Shown piece after piece: positions 26,865 to 50,558 of a stretch of DNA of 64,000 nucleotides. Numbering within the stretch: position 1 is the stretch's first letter; every line of letters begins with the position of its first letter. The translations under genes and the position numbers were made by a program. The notes below the pieces were generated by a model. The model was not told the DNA's origin and ran no database searches. It saw only the letters and a list, made by a program, of their open reading frames with translations. Source of the stretch: Amyloporia xantha. Lineage: Eukaryota; Basidiomycota; Agaricomycetes; Polyporales; Adustoporiaceae. The stretch spans positions 310,001-374,000 of the forward strand of contig JAYKKR010000019.1 of NCBI GenBank assembly GCA_036971615.1, in the 5' to 3' direction.

Positions 26865-27382
26865 TGGCCATTGGCATCTGTTGATGCTGGGCTATTGGAG
26901 ATGCCGCCGTGTCATAAGAACGTGCAGGGATGGAGGTCAGTGTCTACAGGTCCTGATGGGGGTAGTCCATGTTAGGCACAGACAAAGAGATGGCGAAAAA
27001 TGTTATGGATCCAACCGGATCACCACGAACCTCAGTTGTATGTGTGCCATTCTAGCTACTTACCTCAGTATAGTCGGCGCTCGCAACTCGGATTTGTCGG
27101 GACTTACGCGGCTTCAAAGAGGGGCTTTTAGATGGTGAAATGACCATCAAGGTGAAAATGAGGGTAACCTCGTCGACGGTCTCAGGCGGAACAGGGAGCT
27201 TTGTCCCTTTTTGTTTTAACCTAGGGCGGTGAGCCAGGCACCCGACACGATGCTGTCTTTTAAAAGCAACCTCTTCTAGTCAATTCACAACAGTTCACTT
27301 TAATACGGAGATCTGACGGGCTTCGTGTACCCGATGGCTGAGCTATTACATACTATACACTGTTCCTGCCCTATCCAGCCTA
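26865..27382. other. Intergenic at the outer edge of the inverted duplication
   Basis: Converging 3' ends of the peptidase gene (+) and the left MFS gene (-). Homology with the right arm fades just outside the MFS stop, near 27360. No gene seen. Confidence 0.4.
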
Positions 27383-29631
27383 CTAAGGCACGTCCTTCTC
27401 CCCCCCATTCTCCATGTCGTTCACTGTTAGTGCATCTGCATCTGCATCCACGCCGGCCGTCTCACTCCCATTCCTCAGTCGGACACCCTTCTTCCCACCC
27501 ACCACACCCAGGTCTCTCAGGAACACAAGGTTGGCTATCAGACCTGCAGAAGTTATGCCTAGCGTCAGGTACCCGACGGCGTGGTATCCGCGCAGGAGCT
27601 GCAGCGGATCTACGCGCGTGGCAGTGGAATCCATCGTACCGGAGACCGCGGTGGCGACAGCGGAGGACACCGCAAGGCCGATAGAAGTTGCGATCTGTGC
27701 ATACATCAGCGTCAGAGGAGTATGGAGGCCGATATCGACGTGGAAAAGATTACACACCCGCGTGGTGGTACCGAAGAGCCCCCCAGCAAGCGCTTGTGAC
27801 CGGTCGTCCATACTCGTGAGTGTGTAAAGGTTGCCGACGGTGTAGATCGCGTCCGCCGCAGCTGCGAGAGGTTTGCATCAGTCATTGTCACTGCAGTCGT
27901 ACAGGAAAAGGAGGACATACGAAGGAGGATCATGATCCAGAATGTACTAAGCCAGTAGGATGTGGACGGCTCCATGGTGGCCAGCACGGCTGCACAAGCC
28001 TGATATAAATCATCAGTGCACCATACTTCCATTGCAATTGGAGGGAGAAGACGCACTATTGATGTGCTTATGCCGAACGCATTGATCCACTGCCCGGGAA
28101 CATACTCCACGAGCCACCCGGTAAGCGTGTTGAAAAACACGCCTGCCAGTGACTCCGGTATAAATCGTATACCCGTACGCAGAGGGGACAGGAGCTGTAC
28201 GTCCTGATAGCTGCGCACCATCAAGTCAGCATACTATGACGGAACCCTGAGGAGACCACGCAACTAGAGCGTAACAAAGTAGTCCTGTATGTTGAAGCTC
28301 CACCAGGTGAGGAATGCGAGGAGAATGATGGCGGAGAACTGGGTGTAGCGGAATATGCTGAGCGCGAGGAGGACGGAGTGCCCACGGCGTTCTTGACGAC
28401 GTTCCCAAAGGATAAATCCGGCCAGGAGAACGATAGAGACGGAAAAGAGGGCGGGGATGTAAGGCTCGGTCCATCTGCCATAATGTGAGATGATGCTCGC
28501 GAACCGGAAAGGTATGAGCGCGCACGTACCCGACATTCTGCGACTGTCTATACCGGAAACAAGGTGAGACAGTCGCACATACCGTGCACCGAGAGTGCTT
28601 ACGATAGCGAGAATATAAGCAGGACAAGCCCTGATGTGCTCAGACACACGCCCTGCCAATCCAGGTCTCTGTCGTACCTCACTCTATCCTTCGGGACGCT
28701 CGCAAACCCTGCAAGGGTGAAGAGTGCGCCGAGACCCGTCTGAATCACGTAAACCCAGCGCCAGCCGCGCGAGAGATCACACAGGAACCCGGCTACAAAT
28801 CGGAGGGCTAAGTGAGGCCAAGCACGGGTATGACGGGAGGACGGGTATCGCACTCACAGGCGACGAGGCCAAGGATGAAACCAATGCTCTGGCCCCCGGC
28901 GAAGACAGCGACCGCCCGGTTCTTGAGGGCGCCGTCCAAATTGCCACCGATTATCCCCATTCCTGCAGTATGGGTCATGAATGCTACGTGGGGATCATGA
29001 AGCAGAGGAACGGCAGCCACCTGAGGATGTCATGAGAGCAGAGGTGACACCAAGAAGAGCCATGACGATGGTGAACGAGACGGCATCTGGGACGGAAGAT
29101 TTAATAACTGATCATAACATTACTACTCTGGTCATTGTCTCCATACCTCGACAGAATATGGGCGGAATGCTGAGCAGGGTGAATAAAGCGGTGCCGATTA
29201 AGAACACGGTCCTGCGCCCGTACTTGTCGGCCAGACGTCCCGTCAGCAGCAAAAGGCATCCGTTCGTAAGGCTCCACACGCTCCGTCAATTCTGCCCACC
29301 TCAGCCCGTACAGACGTCGACCTCACCTAAATGCTTGCACAGGCCAAGAGAGATCAGCCTGCGTGAAATCCAAATCCTTGCCAATCGAAGGTATCGCTAC
29401 CGTAAGGGCCCCACTCGAGAACACCTGAACGTGTCAAAGAAGTATCACGTCCACAGCAGCAATAGCCACCACACGCACGTTCAATAATGTCGACCCAGAC
29501 GTGGACGCAATCATGGCGTATGCTTTCCATCCTGTTAGCAAGTTCAAATTTATACTTGCACCTGTACCAACGCTAGCGGTTGCGGGTGCGTCCGACGACT
29601 TCGACCTCGAGCTCCCTAAGTGCTTGTCCAT
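27383..29631 (-). CDS. MFS exporter, DHA2/Atr1-like, left copy
   Basis: Major facilitator of the drug:H+ antiporter type with about 14 predicted membrane spans. Starts MDKHLGSSRSKSSDAP, then GWKAYAMIASTSGSTLLN, SSGALTVAIPSIGKDL, TNGCLLLLTGRLADKYGRR (loop 2-3 signature), GMGIIGGNLDGALKNRAVAV, GWRWVYVIQTGLGALFTLAG, ALSIFRYTQFSAIILLAFL, LLSPLRTGIRFIPESLAG and QLLRGYHAVGYLTLGITSAG. It ends EKDVP. At least ten short introns. No stop or frameshift is needed to read it. It is transcribed away from the left KMO-like gene through a 1.35-kb shared promoter. Likely role is export of the cluster's product or toxic intermediate at the plasma membrane; the substrate cannot be told from sequence. Confidence 0.85.
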
Positions 29632-30981
29632 GGGTGTCCCGTTGATACCCTACAAAATCTGGAAATAACCGTCCTTGTTCAGAATCAACAACCCCGCGCT
29701 GCTCAGGGGTGCTTCAGGTACGACAGGATAGTGTGTGTTTCATTTGCGCAACACCGGTGGGATTGTATTTTGTACCCAACGAATAGCCGGCGCTCACGGC
29801 GGGGATAGGCCTGCTAAACATAACCTGCTCTTCTATATGAGCACGTAAACGCAATTGTGGAGCTAGTTGACGTTTGTCTCATCCTAACTCACGGTGCCTT
29901 AGCGTTGCGAACGAACGTTGGTACAGGGCACGAGGACAAGCCCGCGCAAATAGCCAGACGTCCGGGCCCATAGCGCACGGTAGTAGTCTCCGATGGTTGG
30001 GAGCCTCTGGTGGGTATCACGGTCAACGGCAACCCTATTTGGTCGACAGTTTGCTGAACTCAGCTTAAGATCAGGACGTAGAAAAGCGTAGGAAACATAC
30101 TCGTTCACGGCTGGTCACCATTCCGAATAACGGATCTAATAGTAAATGAGCGTGACAGCGGCCATCGAATTGAATCTACAGATCCGTGGCGGTCACGATC
30201 GGAGATACTCATTGCGGTACATACCGTGCCTCTTGCATTAAACCTTCTACTGGGGCTATAGCGAATGTCAATTGTTCGACGCTGAGCAGGTTTTCTGCCC
30301 TGCACCTCCTGGCTGCTATCAATTTAACCTCCTGCTGCATTGGATCAGGTGGGCCATCAGTCAACGAGGTGATTGACTGGTTTTCTGGGGCTGCTGATAG
30401 ACGTTCTGTCTGGTACCGCTGGGCTGTTACCATGCTGCAGCTCTGGGTCGGAGACATCCGGTTATTGTGGTATTGTGGTGATCAATTTTGTCATAGGCGC
30501 TTCTTCGCCACTAAACTGAAATAGCAGACGGGCTCTTGGCACTCAGAGGGCCTGTACATACGATCCAGGCATCGGCTTTACGTGGTTTCATCGGTAAGTT
30601 CAAGTGACTGCTAGATGTTTCGCATCACTCTCACCACCTTATTCCGACAGTCGGAAGCACGGCGCAGGCACAGGGTATAAATCAAAAAATGATGTGGAAG
30701 TCTTTCATGGCCTCGAATGCCTTATGACGATAATTGACGACAGAACGTGTCGAACGTTCCTCATACCTCACAAAACGGGGATAGACACCGAGCGCGCACG
30801 ATGGAACTATGAACGCCCAAATATCAAGGTTCGGATGTTTCTGGTTTATGTATGTAATGCACATTTTTTGCATAAAAGCGGGGCGAATGTGTTAGGTCTG
30901 CAGAGGCCGTGACCTACTCACCATCCGACGCGTTCAGCTCACCCACCAAGACATCAAGCGCTATTGCATCTTTGCCAAATA
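29632..30981. promoter_or_regulatory. Divergent MFS/KMO promoter, left arm
   Basis: 1.35 kb between two start codons. Several blocks are conserved in the right arm while the sequence between them has diverged. One block shares CTGTTACCATGCT (30423-30435). Another shares TCTGCAGAGGCCG and CCTACTCAC about 60 nt before the KMO start. Conservation of blocks in the right order suggests shared regulatory elements. Short frames that cross these blocks look like chance. Confidence 0.5.
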
Positions 30982-32826
30982 ATGTCCTCATACTCCACTG
31001 AGAAGTCGACCAAGAGTGTTGCGGTGATTGGCACCGGCCTCGCCGGATGCCTCGCTGCACTCGGTATTGCGAACAAGTTTGGCTGGGCAGTCGACATCTA
31101 CGACGCTCGTAGTGGTATGTCTGTTCTGTCCATCCTCGGGCCGACATATTGACCTGTTCCTTGTACACAGCGACAGACAAGGCCATCGACGATAGGAGGG
31201 CAATCAACCTCGCGATGAGCGCACGGGGCCTGCGCGCGATCGAGGATGTCGACCCGGACCTTTCGGCAGAGATGGTCCGCATCGGTGTGCCCCTTCACGG
31301 GCGCATGATCCACGATTACAAGGGGAGCACAAGCTACCAAGCGTACAGCCCGCACAATGAGGTATGTCTCCATTTCCATGTACGTGTGTTCAGAATGGCT
31401 GACGGTCGCCGTGGGCAGGCCATCCTCTCCATAAACCGGTTTACAATGATCGCCGCATTCAAAGAGGCCATGGCAGCGAGTCCATTGATCAAGACGCACT
31501 TTAGCCACAAGCTGGTCAAGTCACAAGGGACAGAGATGGAGTTTGAGAACCCGCTGACGGGCGACCACGTCAAAGCGAGCGCTGACCTGATTATTGGCGC
31601 AGACGGTGCGTATTCTGCGCTGAGAGAGCAGATGCGCCGAGTGATCAAGTGAGTGGTAAACTCGTGATCTGTGTGCGAGACGCTGTGTCTGACGACCGTC
31701 TGATCAGGATGGACATGAGTACTCGGTGGGCGCCGCTGTCGTATATGAAAATTGAAGTTGCTCCGAAGACGCTCGCCAATGGGGAGAAAACGGACGCCTT
31801 TGATCCGAGCGTGCTTCATGTCTGGCCACGGAAGGACTTCCTGCTTATTGCACCGAGCAATGCTGTATGTGTCTGGTTTATATCTTGCTGCTTCTTCGAA
31901 ATTCTGACACTTCATGTTGTAGGATAAAACATTCACTTGCGTGCTTTGGGCAACAGATGCGTTGCTGGAGCGGCTGAGAGAAGACGAAAAGTTCACCCGG
32001 AAATTCTTTCCAGAAATGTTCCCGTCCTTCATGCCCGCGATATCCATCGAGGACGTGATCGCGCAGTTGAAGGCCAATCCGGTTGTCCCCATGTGTTCCA
32101 TGAAGGTTTGTTCTCGCTACATAACGGGAGCGCTGTCAGCTCTTACATATCTTGACGCAGTGCTCTCCTCTGCACGACGAGCACCGGGTCCTCATCGGGG
32201 ATGCCGCCCATGTGATCGTGCCTTACCTTGGCCGTAAGCTCCAAGTCGATCTGTATTCCCAACCGACTGAAAATCTGACAATGTTTCTCTCAGACGGCGC
32301 AAACGTCGGTTACGAGGATGTCCGCCTCCTTCTCGGCTGCCTCGGGCGGGAGCCGAATCAAAAAGCTGCCCTCGATACCTACAGCAAAATGCGTCAGGCC
32401 GACCTGGACGCGATCGACTACGTCTCGTGGGCACATGTCCAGGTGCACACGGTCGTTCATTTCCTGTCTCTTCCAAAACCACTGATGCACAAAGGTTCAT
32501 TCCCACAGGAGCTGTCCGAGCACGTTCTTCAATTTCGCTATGTCGTGCGCAAGTGGCTCGATTTCACGTTGGCTCGGGCGTTCCCCGGGAAATGGGTGCC
32601 GCTATATTCGGCAATCACGTTCGACTCGGAGACGTCGTACGCGGATGTAGTCAAACGTGACCGTCGGCAGGCGCGCATCGTAAGCTCGGCGAACGTTCTG
32701 CTCATCGCGCTTCTGGTATGGACTATGTGGACGATGGGAAGCGCATTCGTGCCGCAGAGCAGTCAAGGACAATGGATGAGGCGCCCGGTCGTATCCTACC
32801 GTGCCATGCCGTCGGACGTAGATTAG
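30982..32826 (+). CDS. Kynurenine 3-monooxygenase-like FAD hydroxylase, left copy
   Basis: Flavin monooxygenase of the KMO group, which adds a hydroxyl to an aromatic amine ring using NADPH and O2. Eight exons (30982-31114, 31171-31361, 31419-31648, 31708-31864, 31923-32105, 32161-32233, 32294-32442, 32509-32826) close to 477 residues. It has the Rossmann FAD motif VIGTGLAGCLAALG, the strand-2 acid DIYDAR, INLAMSARGL, the KMO-type segment HGRMIHDYKG followed by AILSINR, DLIIGADGAYSALR, VLIGDAAHVIVPYLG and GANVGYEDVRLLL. The C-terminus has a hydrophobic anchor (VLLIALLVWTMWTMG), as in mitochondrial outer-membrane KMO. The Arg of RMIHD and a downstream Tyr, which bind the kynurenine carboxylate in yeast Bna4, are present. 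A related aromatic amine is possible as substrate. Confidence 0.85.
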
Positions 32827-34118
32827 CGTGCTCTGGTACGGGGAGAACCATGCCCTGTTGGGAAAGAACGCTGTAGGTACTTCGTGCTAGAATGCGTTTG
32901 CAGATCATCCCAACTAGTCAACGAACGGTGGCGAAAAGCTGTAGTTGACAGGTAGTATAAACTGCAGAGCGTCGTGAAGTCATGGTGGAAGTCGGCTTCG
33001 AATTCTTGTGTCGATAATACCCGTTGAAGTACTATTCATGGATATTGTATATGTGATTCTGCGGATAAATGATAAGTGCCTGCAGTGCAGGACGAATTAG
33101 CGAGAATGACATATATAGCTCCAGCGACCAGTGATCGGGTGACAACAAATGTCAAATACACGTAAATCTTTGGGTCGTTGTCCTATTTGCGCCGTTCTTT
33201 CTCAGTTTGCTATTCCATGATCATGACATACCAAGTGAAGTATTGACTTTACATATGTAGCTCGAAGGGCCGAAGGTAACTCCCACGGAGTAGAGGTTTT
33301 CTGTCCTCCCAGCCGCGAGTCAAGCGCCGCCAACGCTACTGGGCCGTTTCTCATCCTTATGACCATCCATTCGTCATCATCCTGTCTTGTGCGGTAAAAG
33401 AATATTTGGAAGCATGTTCGGCATAACTTTTGGATGCCTGCGAGCAAATGCGCAACGTTGCTTTCATCACTTTTAACTGTGCATGTCTCGTAGAGCAGGT
33501 TACCAAGGACACCACACTTGATCACTGACCTCATTTCTTTCTCCATATGGAGTACTGTAGATGGAATTTTGGCCGAACTAGCGCGCGTCCGATGGCTAAT
33601 TAGAGATAAGATAGGAAAAGATAATCTATTTCTCATGCAATTCTATGCAATTGTGCTGGACGGAGAACTCTTAAATTGAAAGCATGGAGTAAATCCTCGT
33701 AACTCCGTATTTTTCTATACCTTTTTCAACAGTGGTACGAGTAGAGTCAAGAGAAATGTAGAGTTCTCCTGACCTTGCCATCTACTAGACATTTGTAGAA
33801 GGCGCCCAATCGGCAGCGGCTCAAAGGGGGATGGCAAATGGTTAAATGCGACAGTTGTAAATTAATGACAAGTACAAGATAGGAACCGAGGCTCATCCGT
33901 ATTGGTACGGTCTGCACATAACTTGAACAGACTCCGGAGAGCAACACTCATGTCATTATCCCCCTGCGACCATTAATGTCACCTCTCGCTTGAAAATGTT
34001 GTCTGCGGTATTCAACTTCATAGCCGCCTTAGAATGGCTTAAGCCGAAAGGCCGCCCTGGCTAGCATATATGTACATGGTCTATCGTTGCGCGCCTGAGC
34101 ATCGTATCTCTGGTCACC
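32827..34118. other. Spacer between left KMO and the GS-like gene
   Basis: The first ~270 bp belong to the duplicated arm, with the CCTGCAGTGCAGG element at 33079-33091. The remainder is unique to this side. It holds one uncharacterised minus-strand frame (33202-33636) and the upstream region of the GS-like gene. Confidence 0.45.
33202..33636 (-). CDS. Orphan open frame, doubtful
   Basis: 144 codons, MRNRLSFPILSLISHRTRAS at the start and CHDHGIAN at the end. Contains a polar patch (FYRTRQDDDEWMVIRMRNG). No transmembrane segment, signal peptide or known domain. It lies in the unique spacer of the inverted duplication, on the strand opposite both neighbours. It may be a real lineage-specific protein, an exon or chance; I lean to low support. 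Confidence 0.25.
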   Translation of the reverse strand: MRNRLSFPILSLISHRTRASSAKIPSTVLHMEKEMRSVIKCGVLGNLLYETCTVKSDESNVAHLLAGIQKLCRTCFQIFFYRTRQDDDEWMVIRMRNGPVALAALDSRLGGQKTSTPWELPSALRATYVKSILHLVCHDHGIAN

Positions 34119-35824
34119 ATGAACGCTGGCTCGAAACCGACCTCTGGCGAGGGCCTTGGGTATGGTATCGTCTACCAGCCCACCTCACCCAAGAATGCTT
34201 CGACCATCTCCGTCAACGGCTTCCAGCTCGAGAGCCTAGGCATCAAGTACGTGCGTGTTCAATGGGTTGACCTCACCAACACAGTGCGATTTCGCGTCTT
34301 GCCCCTGTCCTACTTCAAGAAACTGTACACCTCCTCGCGCCCGGCGGTAGGTTTGGCATATTCTACACTGGGTATGGTTGGTCCCATGGCTGCGCAAGGC
34401 TTCTCTGGGACGGGCGAGCATCTATATGTCCCCGATCTAAGCAGCTTTCGCGTTTGCCCCTACGCTCCTGGCCATGCGGTGGTTATGGGTTGGTTCCAAG
34501 AGAAGACACCGTCGCCTTCTGGCAGTCTGGCATCGCCGCTGTGTCCGCGGATGCTCTTACAGAGGATCATCGAGTATGCATAGCCTCAGATCGATCAACA
34601 TTTGCCTGATGGGCGCCTGATTATTTAATTTAGCGAAGCGCAGGAGAAGGCTGGGATTGCGTTTCTGGCTGGTTTTGAGTCGGAATTTATCCTTCTTAGT
34701 GCCACTTCGCCGCACCCAGTCACTGTGAACAATGCGGGCTGGTCTTGCTCTGCCAAGACCCGCTCAGGATCAGTGGAGACGATCGTGCTGGAAGAGATCG
34801 CTGATGCGTTGCTGGAGGCAGGCATTGAGCTTCAGATGTACCATGCGGAAGCTGCTCCAGGACAGGTATGGATCTGCCACTATCTTGCATGCATCTGTTT
34901 ATGACAATGAATTTCTGAAATTTCTTATTAGTTTGAGGTCGTGACAGGGCCCTTGGCTCCGTTGGAAGCGGCGGATGCAATTGTTCATACTCGCGAGACG
35001 ATATATAACATTGCGAACAAGCATGGCCTCCATGCTACCTTTGCGCCGCGCCTGCATGCTAATAACTGTAGGTCACACGATATCCTCTCTCACCATATCC
35101 ATGACCTCAAAACACTGTAATCCAGGTGGTAATGGTGCACACATGCACATTTCCGTGCACTCAACGAAAGGCGATGTCTCTGTGGATGCGTCGTCAGGCT
35201 CCGATGCATCCTTCGGACCAACTCTCACGCCCACCGAACGATCCTTCCTGCAAGCACTCCTGGAACACCTGCCCGCTTTGTGCGCACTGATCCTTCCCAC
35301 CTCTGCTTCCTATGCCCGCGTCATGGACGGGATCTGGTCTGGTGGTACATACGCATGCTGGGGCACAGACAACAAGGACGCACCCATACGTCTCTGCGGG
35401 CCGCAAGGCGGACACAACTTCGAGCTAAAGAGTTCCGACGCGACAGCGAATCCGTACCTCGTTCTCGCAGGTGTGATCGCGGCAGGGCTGGATGGCGTGC
35501 TACAGCAGGCGCAGCTGAAAATTGGGGATTGCGTGAAGCCGGCGGCGCAGATGAGTGAGGTGGAGATGAAAGCGGCGGGATTGGAAAATCCGGGCAGGTT
35601 GCCGAGGACAGTGGAGGATGCGAGGAAGGTGTTTGGCGCGGATGGGCTTTTCAGAGAGAAGTTTGGGGATGAGTTCGTGAACAAATACTTGAGCGTGAAT
35701 GAAGTGAGTCCGGTGTTCAATGTGTTTGCTATATGGATCTGACGATTGGCTGCAGCTGTTCCAGAAATTCATGACTGCGGAGACGGAAGAAGAGACAGTT
35801 ACTCGCTTGGTCGAATATTGCTAA
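34119..35824 (+). CDS. Glutamine synthetase-like ligase (FluG / gamma-glutamyl-amine ligase type)
   Basis: ATP-grasping GS-fold ligase that joins the gamma-carboxyl of glutamate to an amine. Five exons (34119-34573, 34634-34865, 34932-35067, 35126-35703, 35756-35824) close to 489 residues. It shows a beta-grasp-like N-terminus (YVRVQWVDLTNTVRFRVLP), metal-site E-x-E in AGFESEFILL, YHAEAAPGQFEV (where GS has HHEVA..Q.E), the ATP-site block GNGAHMHISV, NKDAPIRLCGP (where GS has NRSA.IRIP) and FELKSSDATANPYLVLAG. The Arg usual in the last metal/glutamate motif (E-x-R) is Lys here, as in FluG-like and other non-ammonia GS relatives. It is therefore probably not the housekeeping glutamine synthetase. 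It is alone in the centre of the inverted duplication, the only single-copy gene there with a clear enzyme fold. Confidence 0.85.
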
Positions 35825-36334
35825 CTCGTATCTGGATCTTCGATATTCTCCATCACTCTGGTCAGTAACCACAAGATAAGCGAGCACGATGTATTATGCC
35901 TCAGGCATCAGGAAAGTCATGAATTTACTTGGTATGTCGCAGTGTCTTCAGATGGCAACTGTGGAAACACACAGCATTATATCCTTGGACATTAGTACCT
36001 CTCTCCCTCGCCTCCTCATCTGTACCAGCAATGCATCACTAAATTTGAAGCTTTAGCTAATACCGGCCTGCACTGCAGGGATTTATTACTGTGCTGCGGG
36101 ATAAGAGCAAAAGGAAAGACACACTATCTACGAAAACTACTGCGACGGTGGTATTGATACAGCATAAAATTAACTATCTGACTTGAAATATCAGTAAATA
36201 ATAGGTGGCCGTTCATACTGTTCATTAACATCAGCTCCGCTCGTCAACTCTCGTCAGCAGCTCTAAACGGATGCTAGCCCCAATCGACAACATGCTTTTG
36301 CTGCATAGTTCGCCCCACGTAAACGCTCACTCGC
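35825..36334. other. Spacer between GS-like gene and right KMO
   Basis: Convergent 3' flanks. The inner part from about 36062 is the right-arm equivalent of 32827-33095, marked by the palindromic element at 36067-36079. No gene. Confidence 0.5.
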
Positions 36335-38168
36335 CTATGAGGGCATGACGCGATGGGATGCGGCCGAACGCTCCACCCATTGTTCTCGACTGTTCTCTGG
36401 CAGCAGTGCACTCCCCGTGGTCCACGCAATCCATACCAACAGCGCAATCAGCAGAATATTCACAGAGCGCACAATGCGGGCCTGTCGACGGTCGCGCTTG
36501 ACCACGTCCGCGTATGACGTCTCCGAGTCGAAGGTGATGGCCGAATACAGCGGGACCCACTTGCCAGGGAAGACCCGAGCCAGGGTGAAATCCAGCCACT
36601 TGCGCACGACATAACGTATCTGCAGGACGTGCTCGGACAGCTCCTAAAGGAATAGGTCTTACGTCAGCGATTTGGGAAGTAGCAGGGAATGGACAGCCAT
36701 GCGCACCTCGACGTGCGCCCATGAGACGTAATCAATCGCGTCCAGGTCAGCCTGGCGCATTTTGCTGTAGGTATCGAGCGCGGCTTTCTGATTCGGCTCC
36801 CGCGCAAGGCAGCCAAGCAGGAGACGAACGTCCTCATAGCCGACGTTGGCGCCGTCTGGGAGGAGGACATCATCAGATCACGGGTTTTCAGGACAGAAAG
36901 ATCAAGCTCGAGCTTACGGCCTAGGTAAGGCACGATCACATGTGCGGCGTCGCCGATGAGAATGCGATGCTCGTCGTTCAGAGGAGAGCACTGTGCCGCA
37001 GAAGACGTCAAGACCGATGCCCATCAAATGACGCAATGAAACGAACCTTCATGGCACACATGGGAACAATCGGATTAGCCTTCAACTGCGCGATCACGTC
37101 CTCGATGGATATCGCGGGCATGAAGGACGGGAACATTTCTGGAAAGAATTTCCGGGTGAACTTTTCGTCTTCTCTCAGCCGCTCCAGCAACGCATCTGTT
37201 GCCCAGAGCACACAAGTGAATGTTTTATCCTACAGCGCAGAGTTAGTGTCTCAAGATGCAGCAAATAATAACCCCAAGACGTACAGCATTGCTCGGTGCG
37301 ATGAGGAGGAAGTCCTTGCGTGGCCAGACATGAAGAACACTCGGATCAAAGGCGTCCGTTTTCTCCCCATTGGCGAGCGTCTTCGGAGCAACTTCAATTT
37401 TCATATACGACAGCGGCGCCCACCGAGTACTCATGTCCATCCTGATCAGACCGTCGTCAGACACAGCGTCTCGCACACAGATCACATGTTTACCACTCAC
37501 TTGATCACTCGACGCATCTGCTCTCTCAGCGCAGAATACGCACCGTCTGCGCCAATAATCAGGTCGGCGCTCGCTTTGACGTGGTCGCCCGTCAGCGGGT
37601 TCTCAAACTCCATCTCGGTCCCCTGCGACTTGATCAGCTTGTGGCTGAAGTGCGTCTTGATCAATGGACTCGCTGCCATGGCCTCTTTGAATGCGGCGAT
37701 CATTGTAAACCGGTTTATGGAGAGGATGGCCTGCCCACGGCGACGGTCAGCCATTCTCAACACACGTACATGGAAAGGGAGACATACTTCATTGTGCGGG
37801 CTGTATGCTTGGTAGCTTGTGCTCCCCTTGTAATCGTGGATCATACGCCCGTGGAGGGGCACACCGATGCGGACCATCTCCGCCGAAAGGTCCGGGTCGA
37901 CATCCTCGATCGCGCGCAGGCCCCGTGCGCTCATCGCGAGGTTGATTGCCCTCCTATCGTCGATGGCCTTGTCTGTCGCTGTGTACAAGGAACAGGTCAA
38001 AATGTCGGTCCCGACGATGGACAGAACAGACATACCACTACGAGCGTCGTAGATGTCGACTGCCCAGCCAAACTTGTTCGCAATACCGAGCGCAGCCAGG
38101 CATCCAGCGAGGCCAGTGCCAATCACCGCGACTCTCTTGGTCGACTTCTCAGTGGAGTGTGTGGACAT
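36335..38168 (-). CDS. Kynurenine 3-monooxygenase-like FAD hydroxylase, right copy
   Basis: Same eight-exon structure as the left copy, running from 38168 (MSTHSTEKSTKRVAVIGTG) to the stop at 36335. Motifs kept: VIGTGLAGCLAALG, INLAMSARGL, HGRMIHDYKG, AILSINR, DLIIGADGAYSALR, ILIGDAAHVIVPYLG, GANVGYEDVRLLL and the C-terminal hydrophobic anchor (ILLIALLVWIAWTTGSAL). Proteins differ at scattered positions only, and the C-terminus is three residues shorter (ends VMPS). Introns have diverged more than exons, so both copies seem to be under coding constraint. Both transcribe toward the central GS-like gene. Confidence 0.85.
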
Positions 38169-40560
38169 TATTTTATTCGAGAAGTGAGAGCGTAAACGTC
38201 AAGATAGGGGATGAAACAAGCCAAAGTGTGAGTAGGTGGCGGCCTCTGCAAATCCAACGCGTTCACCCCTGCTTTATGAAGAAAATCCGCCTCCAGTTCA
38301 GGCCTGTAACGGCGTGCACACCATGGCCATCGGAGTCTTGACATTTGGGCGGCTATTACGCGCTCGGGGAGCTGTTCGCTTATTTGAAAAAGGATGGTGA
38401 ACGTCTGACAAATTTTGCTGTCAGAGATCGCCACTGCCCGTCCGAGGCCAAGGCATCATTCTGAAATTATGGCCCGTGCCTGGGCAACGCTGCCGGCTGT
38501 CAAAGTAAGGTGGACAGCTTGATGTACATCAGCCAGCTCCCTCGATGAGCGAACGACGTCTGTGCTCACATCGTATGTGTTGGTTCTCTCAATTGAAAGA
38601 ACTTGATCTGCCAGGTCGATGCCTTCGCGAAGAAGCACCTGTGGGGATTGACCGCCAAGAACTGGCTGACGCTTCCGGCCCAACACCGTAGCATGGTAAC
38701 AGACCAGTGGTATGAACCGGAACGCCTATCACTGTCAGCGGTAGAAGAAAACAATTCAATCCCACGGCTTGATCTCCGAGTCGTGGGTAATGCCTCGGCG
38801 CAGCAGGTGATCACGGTGTGTCCGATGGTGTACGGAGGTATGAATGATTTGGGGCGCGGGAGGCTGGAGCCCTCGCGCGGTGCGCAATGTCGAAACACGG
38901 CGTTTCGCTGCCTCACCGACGTCGGATGTGCATTGCAGGAGCTAGCTGCGACATGTGCCACAATGAGTACAGGATGGCCGATCGGGACCGCAGTGAATCT
39001 GACGATGTGATAAACTGCAGATCGGCCTCGATGGCGGCTGTCAATAGGCGCTCAGACGCTTGCTGAGATCCGGCTCGTTCCGCTAAATTATTCTGCGCGC
39101 TACGAGCTTTGTGAGAAACCTACATGCCTAAGGAGTTCTCTACATACAAATTCGCGATGAAATTACGCCCAATGGAGTGAGCTTTGGCATGAGACCGAGC
39201 AATTGATTATTGAAGTCCCCGTTTGACCGTGACACCCGACACAAGAGCAATCAACGCAATACACGGCTTATGACCAAAGTATGCTTCCCGCCCGCTCCCC
39301 TCTTTTACGTACGGGGACCATCTAGACAATACATGAATATCCGACGCAGTTCTTCAAGTTGGCCACATAACGACGGATGTCTAGGGCTTCCTGGAAATGA
39401 ACGGCCATCACGGGCCGCTGAGGCTCGGCGACTCCCCAATTCGAGAAGCATGAGGTACGTCTGCCGAATATGACTCCAAAGGATACCATCTCAAGCAAGG
39501 AGGCCCTCGGCAGACACATGCTCCGTACCTGAGCCATTGTCAGGGCCGCCTGAATGATAGGTCAGCTTGATGCGAATCACACAGCCAACGGATGAACGAA
39601 CACCATGTCGGCTGGGCTCAAATCGTTTCAGTCGCCAGAGAATGGTAACAGCTCCATGATATGGCTGGAATTGGTAACTAGAATGCCTAACTAACCATCT
39701 TTAGAAGAGCGCAATTCAATTCCTTCGCGCGGCAGTCGAACGTTTGATCTTAAGTGATGCTGTTCCTGTCTCGGGGGCATTCGACAGACGCTCAGTGGGA
39801 ACCAACGACCTGCGAGTTGGTCGCTAGAGACGGGGATTCGTGATCACAGATGGGATTGCGAAATGACTCGGCCTGAATAATTTGATGCACAGGAACCCGC
39901 GCGCGGGGTAGCTATAGGGCGCAGCGTATGAAGTTGCAGGGTGCACATGTACAGCACGTGCATAGCGGGCGCCACAATTGAATGGATCTGTTCTATTCAA
40001 GATCAGCACTGAATGATGAGCAGATCCCATTCGATAGCCGCTCAAAATAAATTTACTTCCGCGTCAAAATAGCCGTGGTTTCCCGTGGAATTTGTTGGTT
40101 AAGTCCATTGGGTTAGCTTATTCTAGGCGGTTAGGTGGGTCGCTTCATTGCGATAATCTCCCTACGCCCGGTTCTCTCCTCGTACGCTGGGGGCCTGGGC
40201 ACCGCGAACGTTCGTACCATCGCTCGCAATGAGTACGCAACTGCTACCAACCGTCATCTAGAGAAACCTCATCTAATTGCGCGATTGCGATTACATGGTA
40301 ACAGAACAATATGTTATGTTCAAGCAGGTCAAAATCTCCGATGACGGCTCGCGCGCTCATGCCCGTCAATACATATTCGACTCGTCTCCGCCGGTGTAGC
40401 GTATTTCATCAATGACTTGATGAAACACTTTCTGTCCCGCTGCCCCTGGGGCGGCTTTGGTCAGCATGGGGTTCTACGTTCTTGGCACCGGCACTTGTCC
40501 GCGATTTTCTAGCGTCACCTGCAACACCCCACGGTCCACCATCCCTACCCGACGCTCACT
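38169..40560. promoter_or_regulatory. Divergent KMO/MFS promoter, right arm, with ~0.9 kb extra sequence
   Basis: The outer parts align with the left arm promoter (38225-38285, 38640-38745, 38950-39060 and 40185-40395). The middle, about 39060-40130, has no counterpart on the left. It contains no long open frame or terminal repeat that I can recognise, so its origin (insertion here or deletion on the left) is open. Confidence 0.45.
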
Positions 40561-42806
40561 ATGGACAAGCAGTTAGCTCGTTGGAACTCAGCAGAGGACG
40601 GTGCACAACCTCCCGCTAATACTAACAATACCGCTTCTAATCAGGATGCCAACTTCCTCACGGGATGGCAAGCGTATGCCATGATCGCCGCCACTTCTGG
40701 CTCAACGTTGCTGAACGTGCGTCGGGTCGCCATCTTCCTGTCTCTTTCAGCTCATGCAAACGTTTTTGGCGCATTCAGGTATTCTCGAGCGGTGCCCTCA
40801 CAGTGGCCGTACCTTCCATCGGAAAGGACCTGAACTTCACTCAAGCTGATCTCTCCTGGCCTGTGCAAGCCTTTAGGTGAGTCTGCCGGTCGATAGTCGT
40901 GCGTTGAGCTCGAAGGTGTTGATACGCTGTGTTAAGTCTTACAAACGGATGTCTGCTGCTACTGACCGGTCGTCTGGCCGATATGTACGGGCGCAGGACC
41001 GTATTTTTAATCGGCACCGCTTTATTCACCCTGCTCAGCATTCCGCCCATATTCTGTCGAGGTATGGAGACAATGACCAGAGTAGTATAGTTATGATCAG
41101 TTATTGAATTTTCCGTCCCAGATGCCGTCTCGTTCACCATCGTCATGGCTCTTCTTGGTGTCACCTCTGCTCTCATGACATCCTCAGGTAGCTGCCGTTC
41201 CTCTGCTTAGTCTGCACATGGCATTCATGACCCATATTGCAGGAATGGGGATAATCGGCGGCAATTTGGACGGCGCCCTCAAGAACCGGGCGGTCGCTGT
41301 CTTTGCCGGGGGCCAGAGCATCGGTTTCATCCTTGGTCTCGTCGCCTGTGAGTGCGATACCCGTCCTCCCGTCATACCCGTGCTTGGCCTCACTTAGCCC
41401 TCCGATTTGTAGCCGGGTTCCTGTGTGATCTCTCGCGCGGCTGGCGCTGGGTTTACGTGATCCAGACGGGTCTCGGCGCACTCTTCACCCTTGCAGGGTT
41501 TGCGAGCGTCCCGAAGGATAGAGTGAGGTACGACAGAGACCTGGATTGGCAGGGCGTGTGTCTGAGCACATCAGGGCTTGTCCTGCTGATATTCTCGCTA
41601 TCGTAAGCCCTCTCGGTACACTGTATGTGCGGCTGTCTCACCTCGTTTCCGGTATAGGCAGTCGCAGAATGTCGGGTACGTGCACTCTTTTCCGGTTTGC
41701 GAGCATCATCTCACATTATGGCAGATGGACTGAGCCTTACATTCCCGCTCTCTTTTCCGTCTCTATCGTTCTCCTGGCCGGGTTTATCCTTTGGGAACGT
41801 CGTCAAGAACGCCGGGGGCATTCCGTCCTCCTCGCGCTCAGCATATTCCGCTACACCCAGTTCTCTGCCATCATTCTCCTCGCATTCCTCACCTGGTGGA
41901 GCTTCAACATACAAGACTACTTTGTTACGCTCTAGTTGCGTGGTCTCCTCAGAGTTCCGCCATAGCATGCTAAATTGATGGTGCGCAGCTATCAGGACGT
42001 ACAGCTCCTGTCCCCTCTGCGTACGGGCATACGATTTATACCGGAGTCACTGGCAGGCGTGTTTTTCAATACGCTTACCGGGTGGCTCGTGGAGTATGTT
42101 CCTGGGCAGTGGCTGAATGCGTTCGGCATAAGCACATCGATAGTGCGTCTTCTCCGATTGCAATGCAAGTATGATGTACTGACGATTCATAACAGGCTTG
42201 TGCGGCTGTACTGGCCACCATGGAGCCGTCCACATCCTACTGGCTTAGTGCATTCTGGATCATGATCCTCCTTCGTATGTTCCTCGCTTTCCGCACGACT
42301 GCGACGACAATGACTGACGCAAACCTCTCGCAGCTGCGGCGGACGCGATCTACACCGTCGGCAACCTTTACACACTCACGAGTATGGACGACCGCTCGCA
42401 AGCACTTGCTGGCGGACTCTTCGGTACCACCACGCGGGTGTGTCATCCTCTCTACATCTGCCTCCATCCCATTCTGATACTGACGTATTCACAGATCGCG
42501 ACCTCCATCGGCCTCGCAGTGTCCTCCGCTGTCGCCACCGCGGTCTCCGGAACGATGGATTCCACTGCCACCCGCGTGGACCCGCGACAGCTCCTTCGCG
42601 GATACCACGCCGTCGGGTACCTGACGCTGGGTGTCACCACGGCGGGTCTGATCGTCAACTTCGTGTTCTTACGAGACCTGGGTGTGGTAGGTGGTAAGAA
42701 GGGCGTCAGGTCGACCAACACGAGTCAGGTGGCCAGTGTCAATACAGATGCGGATGCAGCGACGATGCATGGGACGGATAGTATGCAGGAGAAGGACGTG
42801 GCTTAG
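40561..42806 (+). CDS. MFS exporter, DHA2/Atr1-like, right copy
   Basis: Starts MDKQLARWNSAEDGAQPP, then GWQAYAMIAATSGSTLLN, SSGALTVAVPSIGKDLNFTQ, TNGCLLLLTGRLADMYGRR, GMGIIGGNLDGALKNRAVAV, GWRWVYVIQTGLGALFTLAG, FRYTQFSAIILLAFLTWW, LLSPLRTGIRFIPESLAG, ATSIGLAVSSAVATAVSG and GYLTLGVTTAGLIVNFVFL. It ends EKDVA at 42806. Exon-intron structure equals that of the left copy and no disabling change was found. The N- and C-terminal tails have diverged most; the membrane core is almost unchanged. Confidence 0.85.
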
Positions 42807-43281
42807 CGGGCTGATCCGAGGAGGAGCTATTTATTTAATCGAGAGAAGACTAAGTATCATATAGTAAGTAATTTATCAGACATTCTTTTGGATTGTATAT
42901 ACTATATACTAGATTGAAATCAATGAGGCTCCTAGTGAGAAAAAGCCATGTTACACGGGATGGCCGAAGCTCAGACAAAACCTCTACACCGCGGGTGTCG
43001 GTGAGATTGCCGACATCCGTTCCTTATGGACCATCATAGCACGAGCAACATACATCAAAGTCCATAGCATTTGCAGTTCATGTAAGTATCCATCGCGTAC
43101 TGGACAGGATATGCGCGAGGGGGAGTCTTACAATGTCCCTGTAGAGCGAGTACATTGCATATATTCTGAGTACAGGACTGATAAATCTCGCTAATATGGG
43201 CTACAGGAATTATGCATGCGCACAGGCTTGTATAAGTGCTACAATAGATGATTCGACATTAGATAGAATGCTAAGATTATG
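42807..43281. other. Intergenic, outer edge of the right arm
   Basis: AT-rich, no gene. Convergent 3' ends of MFS (+) and the next minus-strand gene. Confidence 0.4.
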
Positions 43282-45420: not shown

Positions 45421-46083
45421 GATAGTGATGTTGACACTCACAATGTCATTCTGCACCGGGCAAGATCATTAGGAGTGACTCACTAGATTAGTTACTTCGC
45501 CTGGGACAGAATCTTGTGTTCATGCTTAATGAGTACCATGATCTTTACATACTCCAAACGTCAGCAATGTAGACTGACGGTGGACGAAGCATAGCGGCAG
45601 TGTCGACCAGAATTTGACCTCGAATTTGAATTTCAAATTCGAGGTCAAATTCTTGAGGAGCGAATTCGCTTTTAGCGCCCATGACATCCGCGCGGACGAT
45701 CACTGCATAGTTTACCATGAGTTTGCCTTCCTATACTCAGCGCCAGCACCCATCGTTTGGACCTTCAATATTCAATTGAAAACCTTTCCATCCTGGACCT
45801 GGTCGAACAGGGCCGAACTCATGGGTTATCTTCTTCGGTGAACGGCTGATTGTTTTTTGTTTCTCCTTCAAGTTAGCAGACCTCTCGCAAGAGTCTCAAG
45901 GCAGCCCGACGCTGGCCGTAGAAGGAGGGTGTAGAGGTGACTATCATAAAATACAAGAACCGCCGTACATTGTTTCGTACGGTAAGATGATACGTCAATA
46001 GCTCATTGGCTGATGTATCGCGCCAATCATCAGTGACGATCCTCTGTTTAAAGACCCAAGTCATCCTTCTCGCTCAGTACATG
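45421..46083. other. Gene-poor interval with palindrome
   Basis: No supported gene. A 63-codon minus-strand frame at 45873-46064 has no recognisable domain. The palindrome at 45610-45652 is listed separately. Confidence 0.4.
45610..45652. repeat. 43-nt near-perfect palindrome
   Basis: Two 21-nt arms (45610-45630 and 45632-45652) are exact reverse complements around a single central base. Each arm combines GAATTTGACCTCG and AATTTGAA. It could form a cruciform or hairpin. It does not lie next to a clear gene 3' end, so a terminator role has no support. Confidence 0.85.
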
Positions 46084-48277: not shown

Positions 48278-49628
48278 CTATGCAACGGCTTCAGGGCTCA
48301 GATATGAATGATCCACCCACACCCACAACACAGCCAATATCACTCCAAACAGAGAAGTCTCTGCCATAAGTGACACTGGTTGAGTTGGGCCTGTGGTTCC
48401 GAATGGCCCAACTTCTTGCAGTGGCTGCGTTGGCGGATCAGTCCATGTCGCTTCAGTAGCAGAAGAGGAGTTGAGGCGATATTGTTGAAGGAGTCGGGGT
48501 CGATGAGCGCACAATCTGCCCATGCGTCACACTGTCTTGCACATCCGGCGGGAAGCACGTGAGTCCGCGCTGCAGCGGCTATTTGTCCGTCTCCGGCATG
48601 AGTGTCCCTCGCAGTCCTCTAACGAACGCTTCTGACGGTGCCGGATGCGGACCTCAACTCCGAACCTATCGATCGCATTGAGGCTGCGTGGAGGGCGTGA
48701 CAAGGGTGCGAGGGCTGTATGGCTCATAGAACTGGATGCGCTCGAGGGAGTGCGCGATCTTGGAGCAAAGGGTGGATGTGACGTGTGCGCGCATGAGCTG
48801 GTCCCGCCGGAACTTCGAGGCGGCTGTTCGGGGCTGGGCGGCGAGGTCATAGGACTATCTGTGGTAAGGCCACACGGCGGTCAGTATCTCGTGACTCGGG
48901 ATATCCTGCGGCGTAGACGCGTACAAGAGATATTATCGCCGAATCCCAGGTCCGCCGTACAACCGTCATCGTCAGTCGTGCTCGGTAGCGGCTGGGAAGA
49001 CGCGCCCTTGCCGCAGAGTCCATGGCGGCATGGTGGCGGAGGCTGTTCTGGATAAGCGGGGCCAGTCGGGAGTTCGCTATATCATCGACGCGGACTGATA
49101 CTTTCCCGCCTAGTGGACGCTTCACCATTCGGGCTGATGCCTCGTCGCCGTTTGGGATTGCCTTGAAGTAGGCCATGCATAGGTACGCGATGGCTCGCAA
49201 CGTGGTCTGCTCACATTGTGGCATAGCAGTATAGAAATAAGCATCACAGCAGACAGCAGTTAAGAAGTAAAGACACTTACACCGACTGCTGCAGATTCAT
49301 CAGCTCCGTCTGTGCACTCTGCACCGTGTTCAGCGCATCCTTCCGCGAGTTGGCTGCCATTGTGTTCCAGTGAATGAACGATCGTAAAGCCGCCGCTGCA
49401 CTCAGCACGCAAGCTTGCGTCCTCGTCTGTGGCGCATTTGTGTTGTGCCGCATGCGCACACATCCATCACCAGGCTAGGATATATTCTGGCCTCGCTGGA
49501 TTTGACGGAGCATTAAAATCGCTGTGCTGGGAAGACCCGTACACGAATGGAGTTGTATGGTGTAGGAGGAGTGGTAACAAAGTTGAATGGGAAGACAGGA
49601 AAGTCTCCCGTTGCAAGCGTAGTTTCAT
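48278..49628 (-). CDS. Family member B, multi-exon, uncharacterised
   Basis: Starts MKLRLQRETFLSSHSTLLPL at 49628, 84 bp below a TATA box. Its opening resembles that of member A (MK-x-LR, Ser run, Leu run). Downstream coding-like blocks are TNAPQTRTQACVLSAAAALR, MAANSRKDALNTVQSAQTEL, TLRAIAYLCMAYFKAIPNGD and RTWDSAIISLV. The last block, TQPVSLMAETSLFGVILAVL, aligns with the C-terminus of member C (TQPALLTAEISLSKMMLAVL). That match in protein supports a real or recently lost coding end at 48278. The exon chain between 48.5 and 48.9 kb is unclear, and the gene may be decaying. Confidence 0.4.
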
Positions 49629-49711
49629 GAGGATGAAGAGATTGGAAGAGAAGACTGTCAAGTTCGAGAGGATGTGGAACTGAAATGCAGCTGCTCACCG
49701 GGGAGTGAAGG

Positions 49712-49721
49712 TATTTATATG
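49712..49721 (-). promoter_or_regulatory. TATA box of family member B
   Basis: CATATAAATA on the minus strand, 84 bp before the ATG at 49628. Matches the elements of members A and C. Confidence 0.6.
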
Positions 49722-50558
49722 CAGGGGGATGGCCTACGGACAGGCCACACTGGCGCTGAAGCGTTCGTTTCTATGCGACAGGTGGCCCAAATGGTGTGCA
49801 TCGAGCGTGGATGTCACGGGCCATACAAAGGAAACACATTTTTGCATTGTCCGCGGTGGAGATCCTGTATTTTCCGTCACCTAAGGAATATCACTCAAGC
49901 TGTCAACCACACGTCCGCGATTCTCGTCATTTGCGGTATCAACGGAAACGCTTACAAGATTCACTATAACGAGCGTGGCGTCGTCAAGGCCTTCAATTCG
50001 GCATATCCCTCTTTATTCCACATGTGGTCAAAGCGGCTCGCCTCGAGGCGTTCCCCACGTCCAGAAATTCAATATTTTACGGCAATTCCTGTTGCCACCT
50101 CGCATGAGCCATGGCTGGCAAACAGCCATCTAGCAGATAAAATTATGCCAAACCTCTATGGTCGGCTCCTGATTTACGACAGTTAACTTTCTGCTCCGTT
50201 GTATCCATTGAGTGAAACATAATGTTTGCCAGTGGCCGCAGTCGGCTCCCGACTGGAAGGAACGTCGCAGCATCGAGTGCACCGGCTAGCAGATTGTGTA
50301 CCGCGTCCAGACTATGCCGAAAATCGCGTAAGAATTGGAGGGGCTGAGATGTCCTATTCTTAGCATTTCTACCACCGGAGGACTTGATATGAGCTGCTTG
50401 TACTGACAGCGCAGAGACTTTAGAACCAGCTTAAACACGAAGAACTGGAAGTATACCTCTCAGATGTCTCTACGCCGGGGGGATGGGACCGGGTGAAAGT
50501 CTCAGGAGATCGGATTTGTCAGTTGAATCTCGACACGTACTTATGAGTCGACTGGGAT
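49722..50558. other. Intergenic, no gene recognised
   Basis: A plus-strand frame covering 49674-50186 overlaps the promoter of member B and has no domain. It is read as chance. Confidence 0.35.

Follow-up and report, generated by a model that had tools for sequence, protein, structure and literature searches.

A 64,000-nucleotide stretch of the Amyloporia xantha genome (contig JAYKKR010000019.1, here C11; C11:310001-374000, hereafter the window, whose own numbering is used wherever no contig is named) was found to hold five intact spliced genes within positions 27360..42860, in which two gene pairs, each for a hydroxylase related to kynurenine 3-monooxygenase (KMO) and a major facilitator (MFS) transporter, are inverted around a single gene for a glutamine synthetase-like (GS-like) ligase. 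In our study the two arms are best explained as an old inverted duplication which was later partly homogenised by recent gene conversion, and this anatomy with its conversion, taken alone, is very probable from the sequence comparisons given below. The wider reading, in which the old inverted KMO-MFS duplication flanks a gamma-glutamyl-amide ligase gene in a metabolic cluster, function included, is given a probability of about 0.5.

Gene layout and extent of the inverted duplication

No gene finder was used; the gene models were put together manually on the basis of splice motifs. Every intron of the cluster models is GT-AG and each gene keeps one open frame.

27383..29631, minus strand: MFS_A, major facilitator transporter, 12 exons, 537 amino acids (hand model, PF07690)
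30982..32826, plus strand: KMO_A, KMO-derived FAD hydroxylase, 8 exons, 477 amino acids (hand model, PF01494, yeast KMO match)
34119..35824, plus strand: GS-like ligase, single copy in the centre, 5 exons, 489 amino acids (hand model, PF00120)
36335..38168, minus strand: KMO_B, 8 exons, 474 amino acids (hand model)
40561..42806, plus strand: MFS_B, 12 exons, 538 amino acids (hand model)

These models bear out the order MFS-KMO-GS-KMO-MFS and the five intact genes which a preliminary description of this DNA had proposed. The same exon structure in both arms, also claimed there, was found as well, the exon counts of arms A and B being equal; length differences are limited to the first exon of MFS (153/156) and the last exon of KMO (318/309). 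KMO_B is identical to KMO_A at 443 of 474 aligned residues and MFS_B to MFS_A at 485 of 537. Pfam scans were done on three of the cluster proteins (GS-like, KMO_A and MFS_A). The enzyme and transporter genes are adjacent, as in fungal metabolite clusters.

Comparison within 24-46 kb gave 24 inverted match pairs, the longest of which join the arms (759 nt at 95%, 474 nt at 96% and 467 nt at 96%). Some of the arm-to-arm matches pass through introns, and beyond the genes there are three intergenic blocks in collinear order (58-59 nt, 72-78% identity); inverted similarity outside the exons, which had been put forward as a check on the duplication, is thus present in both introns and intergenic DNA. 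The matches reach the 3' flanks of the KMO genes (33225-33257 with 35906-35938, 79%) and extend ~425 nt beyond their stop codons. For the 1200 nt compared downstream of the MFS genes, the top hit between A and B was at E 0.62. The parts of the duplication were placed from these matches.

~27355..33257, plus strand: arm A of the inverted duplication (inverted matches, intergenic blocks)
~33258..35905, no strand: unique centre of ~2.65 kb, with the GS-like gene and its promoter (limits of inverted matches)
~35906..42834, minus strand: arm B of the inverted duplication (inverted matches, intergenic blocks)

Over the aligned columns the arms are only 78% identical (4582/5895), and therefore it is extremely improbable that they arose from an assembly artefact or uncollapsed haplotypes: the differences, at 22% of the columns, are patchy, and a third copy, equally distant, lies elsewhere on the contig. 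The MFS-KMO spacer is ~1 kb longer in arm B (2392 vs 1350 nt). A search of the extra promoter DNA of arm B (39050-40100) against the own genome (46.8 Mb in 60 contigs, as in all own-genome searches) gave the self-match alone, and no repeat was recognised in it.

A third module and probable gene conversion between the arms

Searches of the genome with KMO_A and MFS_A revealed a third intact KMO-MFS pair, module C, at C11:415986-421926 on the same contig, starting ~63 kb beyond MFS_B.

C11:415986-417814, minus strand: KMO_C, intact (hand model, same exon count as A and B)
C11:419656-421926, plus strand: MFS_C, intact (hand model, same exon count as A and B)

As no ligase was found beside this module, the KMO-MFS pair, and not the five-gene palindrome, is suggested to be the duplicating unit. 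Module C also serves as a yardstick for the similarity of the arms, which is concentrated in tracts placed by a two-state model with author-set parameters.

28044..29237, minus strand: MFS_A conversion tract, introns 3-8 inside (two-state model)
30977..31867, plus strand: KMO_A conversion tract, 857/891 identical to 37282-38173, introns 1-3 inside (two-state model)
31918..32108, plus strand: second KMO_A tract (exon 5), 185/191 identical to 37044-37234 (two-state model)
37044..37234, minus strand: second KMO_B tract, partner of 31918-32108 (two-state model)
37282..38173, minus strand: KMO_B conversion tract, partner of 30977-31867 (two-state model)
40971..42155, plus strand: MFS_B conversion tract, partner of 28044-29237 (two-state model)

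The first KMO_A tract opens 5 nt ahead of the ATG. The MFS tract is made up of three high-identity segments (447/467, 450/463 and 229/238) separated by 11 and 15 columns, and seven shorter segments with 86-96% identity were also flagged by the model. Between the arms, KMO exons 1-5 are 94-97% identical and MFS exons 4-11 94-100%, with exon 3 at 90%; elsewhere (KMO exons 6-8 and MFS exons 1, 2 and 12) the values are 63-88%. The introns follow the same course, being 85-100% identical inside the tracts (KMO 1-3, MFS 3-8; KMO introns 1-3 at 95-96%) and 54-67% (KMO 4-7), 51-63% (MFS 1-2) and 77-87% (MFS 9-11) elsewhere.

The synonymous divergence (dS) between A and B is 0.14 (KMO codons 1-300) and 0.15 (MFS codons 95-440) in the tracts and 0.88 (KMO 301-end), 2.46 (MFS 1-90) and 0.93 (MFS 481-end) outside them, while A-C and B-C remain at 0.73-1.45 across all five parts, which were picked after the profile was seen and omit MFS codons 91-94 and 441-480. 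Locally slow mutation or protein constraint does not fit this pattern, because the distances to C would then drop too. When polymorphic sites were permuted, the observed A-B fragment was reached in 0/2000 cases for KMO and MFS both; a shorter MFS B-C fragment was also reached in 0/2000, KMO B-C was borderline (63/2000), and A-C was not unusual in KMO (215/2000) or in MFS (1355/2000). Gene conversion between arms of an old inverted duplication is the best explanation of these sequence patterns. Since the arms are nearly identical only in conversion-like tracts, this likeness gives no date for one duplication. The earlier suggestion of an inverted duplication which captured the central gene stands in so far as inverted arms surround a single GS-like gene; a single symmetric duplication is not sustained, given these tracts and the existence of a third module.

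KMO exon 5 (97% identical) lies between introns which are 60% and 54% alike, and conversion mediated by cDNA was considered on this account. It was rejected because the tracts take in KMO introns 1-3 and MFS introns 3-8.

Gene conversion between inverted paralogues is known from Y-chromosome palindromes and yeast repeats, and the sharp-edged high-identity tracts in inverted orientation resemble these examples. Unlike them, only parts of two genes are homogenised here, together with their introns, whereas the promoters and the C-terminal part of KMO differ, and the event lies inside a metabolic cluster. The locus may thus serve as a plain example from nature of metabolic modules which lie in inverted orientation and have converted one another in part, the third copy being an internal yardstick.

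Outside the tracts, the nearest neighbour among A, B and C changes from segment to segment, and in KMO intron 5 B and C alone resemble one another (z 8.9; A-B 0.6, A-C 1.6); no single branching order of the three modules follows from this. MFS_B (40561-41061) and MFS_C (C11:419656-420155) have a common 5'-exon fragment (0/2000 permutations), which suggests older B-C conversion or closer kinship.

Promoter regions of the modules

40404..40425, plus strand: dyad TTTCATCAA-N4-TTGATGAAA, starting 157 bp ahead of the MFS_B start codon
29632..29851, minus strand: MFS_A upstream region, with a ATGAAACAC half-site 112 bp ahead of the ATG (alignment)

The same dyad, TTTCATCAA-N4-TTGATGAAA, begins 176 bp ahead of the start codon of MFS_C, and in MFS_A the alignment shows the half-site without its partner half. 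A genome search for the dyad found it without mismatch at two places (MFS_B and MFS_C), with one mismatch at one place and with two mismatches at four; the reversed dyad, searched in the genome as a control, gave no matches. By sequence, the search shows that the dyad is specific to the modules; it does not imply a function, because the motif was chosen after the B-C match had been seen. A regulon marked by the dyad was considered and rejected: the one-mismatch site, on contig C8, overlaps the end of a 155-amino-acid open frame in a region which looks housekeeping-like by eye. Promoter words common to A, B and C alone numbered 9, with 7.0 expected.

Selection for dosage of the hydroxylase and exporter had been suggested in the preliminary description. 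Conversion which keeps the coding parts alike fits such selection; the diverged promoters and the loss of half the dyad in MFS_A speak otherwise.

The KMO-derived hydroxylases

KMO_A matches PF01494 (7.2e-18), and among solved structures yeast KMO is its closest relative (4j2w, 4.5e-68). The top NCBIfam model, VioC, gives 103.6 bits, far under the cut-off of 760. A canonical KMO is present on another contig (C12:3548179-3550113) and, in the stretch which was compared, is 42.8% identical to yeast KMO. KMO_A has 33.4% identity to this canonical KMO and 36.8% to yeast KMO, and the cluster copies are in general 33-34% identical to the canonical one. The hand model of the canonical KMO requires one GC-AG intron.

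Ten pocket positions, numbered by yeast KMO, were read per sequence, among them Gln325, which we take to be a pocket position. The other nine are from PMC8747024, and Arg83/Tyr97 are also in PMC6656724 (partial texts of both). For comparison, the best 80 of 160 confirmed bacterial relatives from one scan of prokaryote genomes were used; the comparison with yeast and canonical KMO is independent of this set. Arg83 and Tyr97, the pair that holds the carboxylate of kynurenine, are retained in KMO_A, KMO_B, KMO_C, yeast KMO, the canonical KMO and 80/80 bacterial relatives, and L221, I232 and P321 are as in yeast in all three cluster-type copies. The remaining five positions are changed in KMO_A, B and C alike (M230L, L234P, F246W, F322Y and Q325H), where the bacterial relatives have M in 80/80, L in 79/80, F in 80/80, F in 80/80 and Q in 78/80 (H in the other 2), and the genome's canonical KMO equals yeast KMO at each of the ten. 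KMO_A, B and C group together (100/100) in a tree of 85 rows; the stem of this group measures 3.47 changes, and so long a branch makes its place unsure.

The three proteins therefore belong to the KMO family by sequence and by the Arg83/Tyr97 pair, and lack the conserved ring pocket and Gln325. As five of the ten positions are changed in all three, we name them KMO-derived and not KMO; by these residues they are not the housekeeping enzyme. The initial label "KMO-like" is right for the family, as the yeast KMO match shows, and has to be narrowed for the changed ring pocket and the canonical KMO elsewhere in the genome. Like yeast KMO (4j2w, 4j36), they have the FAD domain, the carboxylate clamp Arg83/Tyr97 and, by eye, a hydrophobic C-terminal tail (seen in KMO_A); unlike it, M230, L234, F246, F322 and Q325 are changed in three copies and the genes are linked to transporter and ligase genes. 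A KMO-derived family with an altered ring pocket would thus stand next to a putative ligase of the type described below.

The GS-like ligase

The GS-like protein matches PF00120 (5.4e-64), and its best NCBIfam model is gamma-glutamylputrescine synthetase NF045547 (9e-68, 229 bits vs a cut-off of 650). The gene had been described as single, which agrees with the genome query, in which no relative was found at E 1e-3; PF00120 domains on contigs C12 and C2 were not reached by this query. The solved relatives include glutamine synthetase entries, 4hpp, the glutamate-methylamine ligase 9qur, and 8wwu; we take 8wwu to be NpaA1, and 4hpp is presumably PA5508. The metal-ligand motifs are retained by eye. 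Read against the 8ool row, the flap Glu is replaced by Trp, as it is in 4hpp, and the Asp of FDGSS (Asp50') by Val, in an N-terminal part where the alignment is weak. The roles and numbers of the flap Glu and Asp50' in ammonia-using synthetases are assumed by us, the flap Glu being presumably residue 327.

Loss of the flap Glu and of Asp50' is given as the mark of glutamyl organic amide synthetases (GoaS) in the available portion of PMC11335346, which mentions 8WWU and prints the flap residue as Glu357. By alignment the GS-like protein lacks both residues of the ammonia-using glutamine synthetases, and it resembles GoaS (NpaA1, AtdA1, PA5508) in its GS catalytic domain, its metal-ligand motifs and the absence of the flap Glu and Asp50'. 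Unlike GoaS genes it has introns, and three active-site arginine places are changed. Its neighbour is a KMO-like flavoenzyme, whereas the aniline and naphthylamine clusters carry a Rieske dioxygenase (PMC11335346, partial text).

The transporters

MFS_A matches PF07690 above the cut-off (2.5e-36). Its best curated match is TIGR00711 (DHA2 efflux) with 1.8e-36 and 125.9 bits, vs a cut-off of 230.2; the model names prokaryote proteins.

Proposed pathway and alternative explanations

In the proposed pathway, the KMO-like enzymes would hydroxylate an aromatic amine bearing an alpha-amino-acid head, the ligase would cap the arylamine nitrogen with gamma-glutamate, and the transporters would export the capped, less reactive product; hydroxylation and gamma-glutamylation may come in either order before export. 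Conversion between the inverted arms would keep two working hydroxylase and transporter copies alike. If the pathway holds, it is a concrete candidate for fungal arylamine gamma-glutamylation. The Agaricus pathway to gamma-glutaminyl-4-hydroxybenzene (GHB) would likewise use an arylamine hydroxylase and gamma-glutamyl transfer. In the available text of an A. bisporus GHB study, the transferase was not found by annotation and two GGT candidates were obtained by BLASTp, with unclear role (PMC9410529). A Hypsizygus study, in its available part, lists genes for 4-aminobenzoate hydroxylase and glutaminyltransferase, the latter 2 and 1 in two strains (PMC13300218), and the idea that the GHB step lacks an enzyme is weakened by this list. 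No earlier description of the cluster was noticed in a literature search limited to listings, most subscription journals being outside its reach.

A more specific version, which we regard as quite doubtful, places the ligase first. The gamma-glutamyl arylamide so formed, aryl-NH-CO-CH2-CH2-CH(NH2)COOH, would be a look-alike of kynurenine, aryl-CO-CH2-CH(NH2)COOH, and because the two share the layout of aryl, carbonyl, chain and amino acid, the KMO-derived enzyme could act after the ligase. The Arg/Tyr clamp would grip the amino-acid head, the reshaped pocket would fit the longer molecule with its shifted ring, the capped ring would be hydroxylated and the transporter would release a glutamate-capped aminophenol. 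Bacteria are described as glutamylating anilines prior to oxidation (PMC11335346, partial text). If true, this would be a new two-enzyme logic, in which a kynurenine mimic is made and KMO is then reused, and the ligase would be a candidate for the gamma-glutamylation step of mushroom metabolites of the GHB or agaritine type.

Several points weigh against the metabolic cluster reading. The ligase may be a bystander, because no ligase was found near module C: the GS-like query returned only its own gene from C11:300001-434000 and from the whole genome at E 1e-3. Altered or lost ligase activity is possible, because three active-site arginine places (positions assumed by us) are Lys, Asn and Lys in the alignment. 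Further, no 8-10 nt word is common to the promoters of A, B, C and the GS-like gene (8-mers: 0 found, 0.2 expected), and no ligase or transporter was found in the flanks of the bacterial KMO relatives (0/80 loci, tblastn E 1e-3, flanks up to 6 kb and some shorter). The 80 bacterial rows were moreover chosen by two near-pocket peptide patterns and are mostly Bacteroidota, so that the pocket counts come from a set which is not neutral and is of limited breadth.

The alternatives are not all exclusive of the proposed pathway. In one of them, an accident of duplication left a KMO-MFS module and its inverted copy next to an unrelated ligase gene, without joint function and with conversion as a passive effect of nearness. 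No ligase was found beside module C, no promoter words are common to the modules and the GS-like gene, and the arm promoters have diverged, all of which agrees with such an origin. This accidental origin is tentative and somewhat unlikely, as the arms and module C have stayed intact despite dS near 1; that speaks for the modules being kept and does not imply membership of the ligase. It is unlikely that KMO_A-C are true kynurenine 3-monooxygenases, multiplied with their transporters for 3-hydroxykynurenine or derived pigments beside an incidental GS-like gene. The family by sequence (yeast KMO, 4.5e-68), the retained Arg83/Tyr97 and the likeness of A and B kept by conversion agree with such a role; the five ring-pocket changes, present in each of the three copies where 78-80 of 80 bacterial relatives, yeast KMO and the canonical KMO keep the residue, do not, nor do the identity of only 33-34% to canonical KMO and the long stem on which the group stands in the tree, its place there being unsure.

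Bacterial gamma-glutamylanilide synthases start aniline breakdown, and the cluster may likewise serve detoxification, its genes capping, hydroxylating and expelling foreign arylamines or plant defence compounds. This would be a variant of the proposed pathway with another purpose. Two observations suit it: the ligase has GoaS-like marks, and among the curated models the transporter scores best with one for DHA2 drug efflux, although below the cut-off. It too is improbable in our view, as no ring-cleaving enzyme or dioxygenase was recognised among the 29 other window ORFs scanned as single exons.

Surroundings of the modules

There are 63 open reading frames (ORFs) of at least 150 amino acids listed in the window, and 29 of them, all lying outside the cluster, were searched one at a time (E 0.01), a procedure which genes with short exons may escape. 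Six of the 29 had matches (PQQ/beta-propeller, WDR55-like below the cut-off, SET with N-SET, RRM, kinase-like and aldehyde dehydrogenase) and 23 had none at this threshold; no further biosynthetic partner was recognised among these single exons.

An ORC5-like ORF adjoins module C. Between modules B and C, 3.1 kb at C11:405915-409013 match their own reverse complement at 93%; the segment holds AT-rich tandem repeats in both orientations and is a large near-palindrome, either real or an assembly fold-back. Window positions 48324-49865, in which one overlapping ORF was scanned without a Pfam match, are repeated directly at C11:395723-397355 in three pieces with 76-79% identity. Finally, positions 45609-45653 form a perfect 22-nt inverted repeat with a 1-nt gap.

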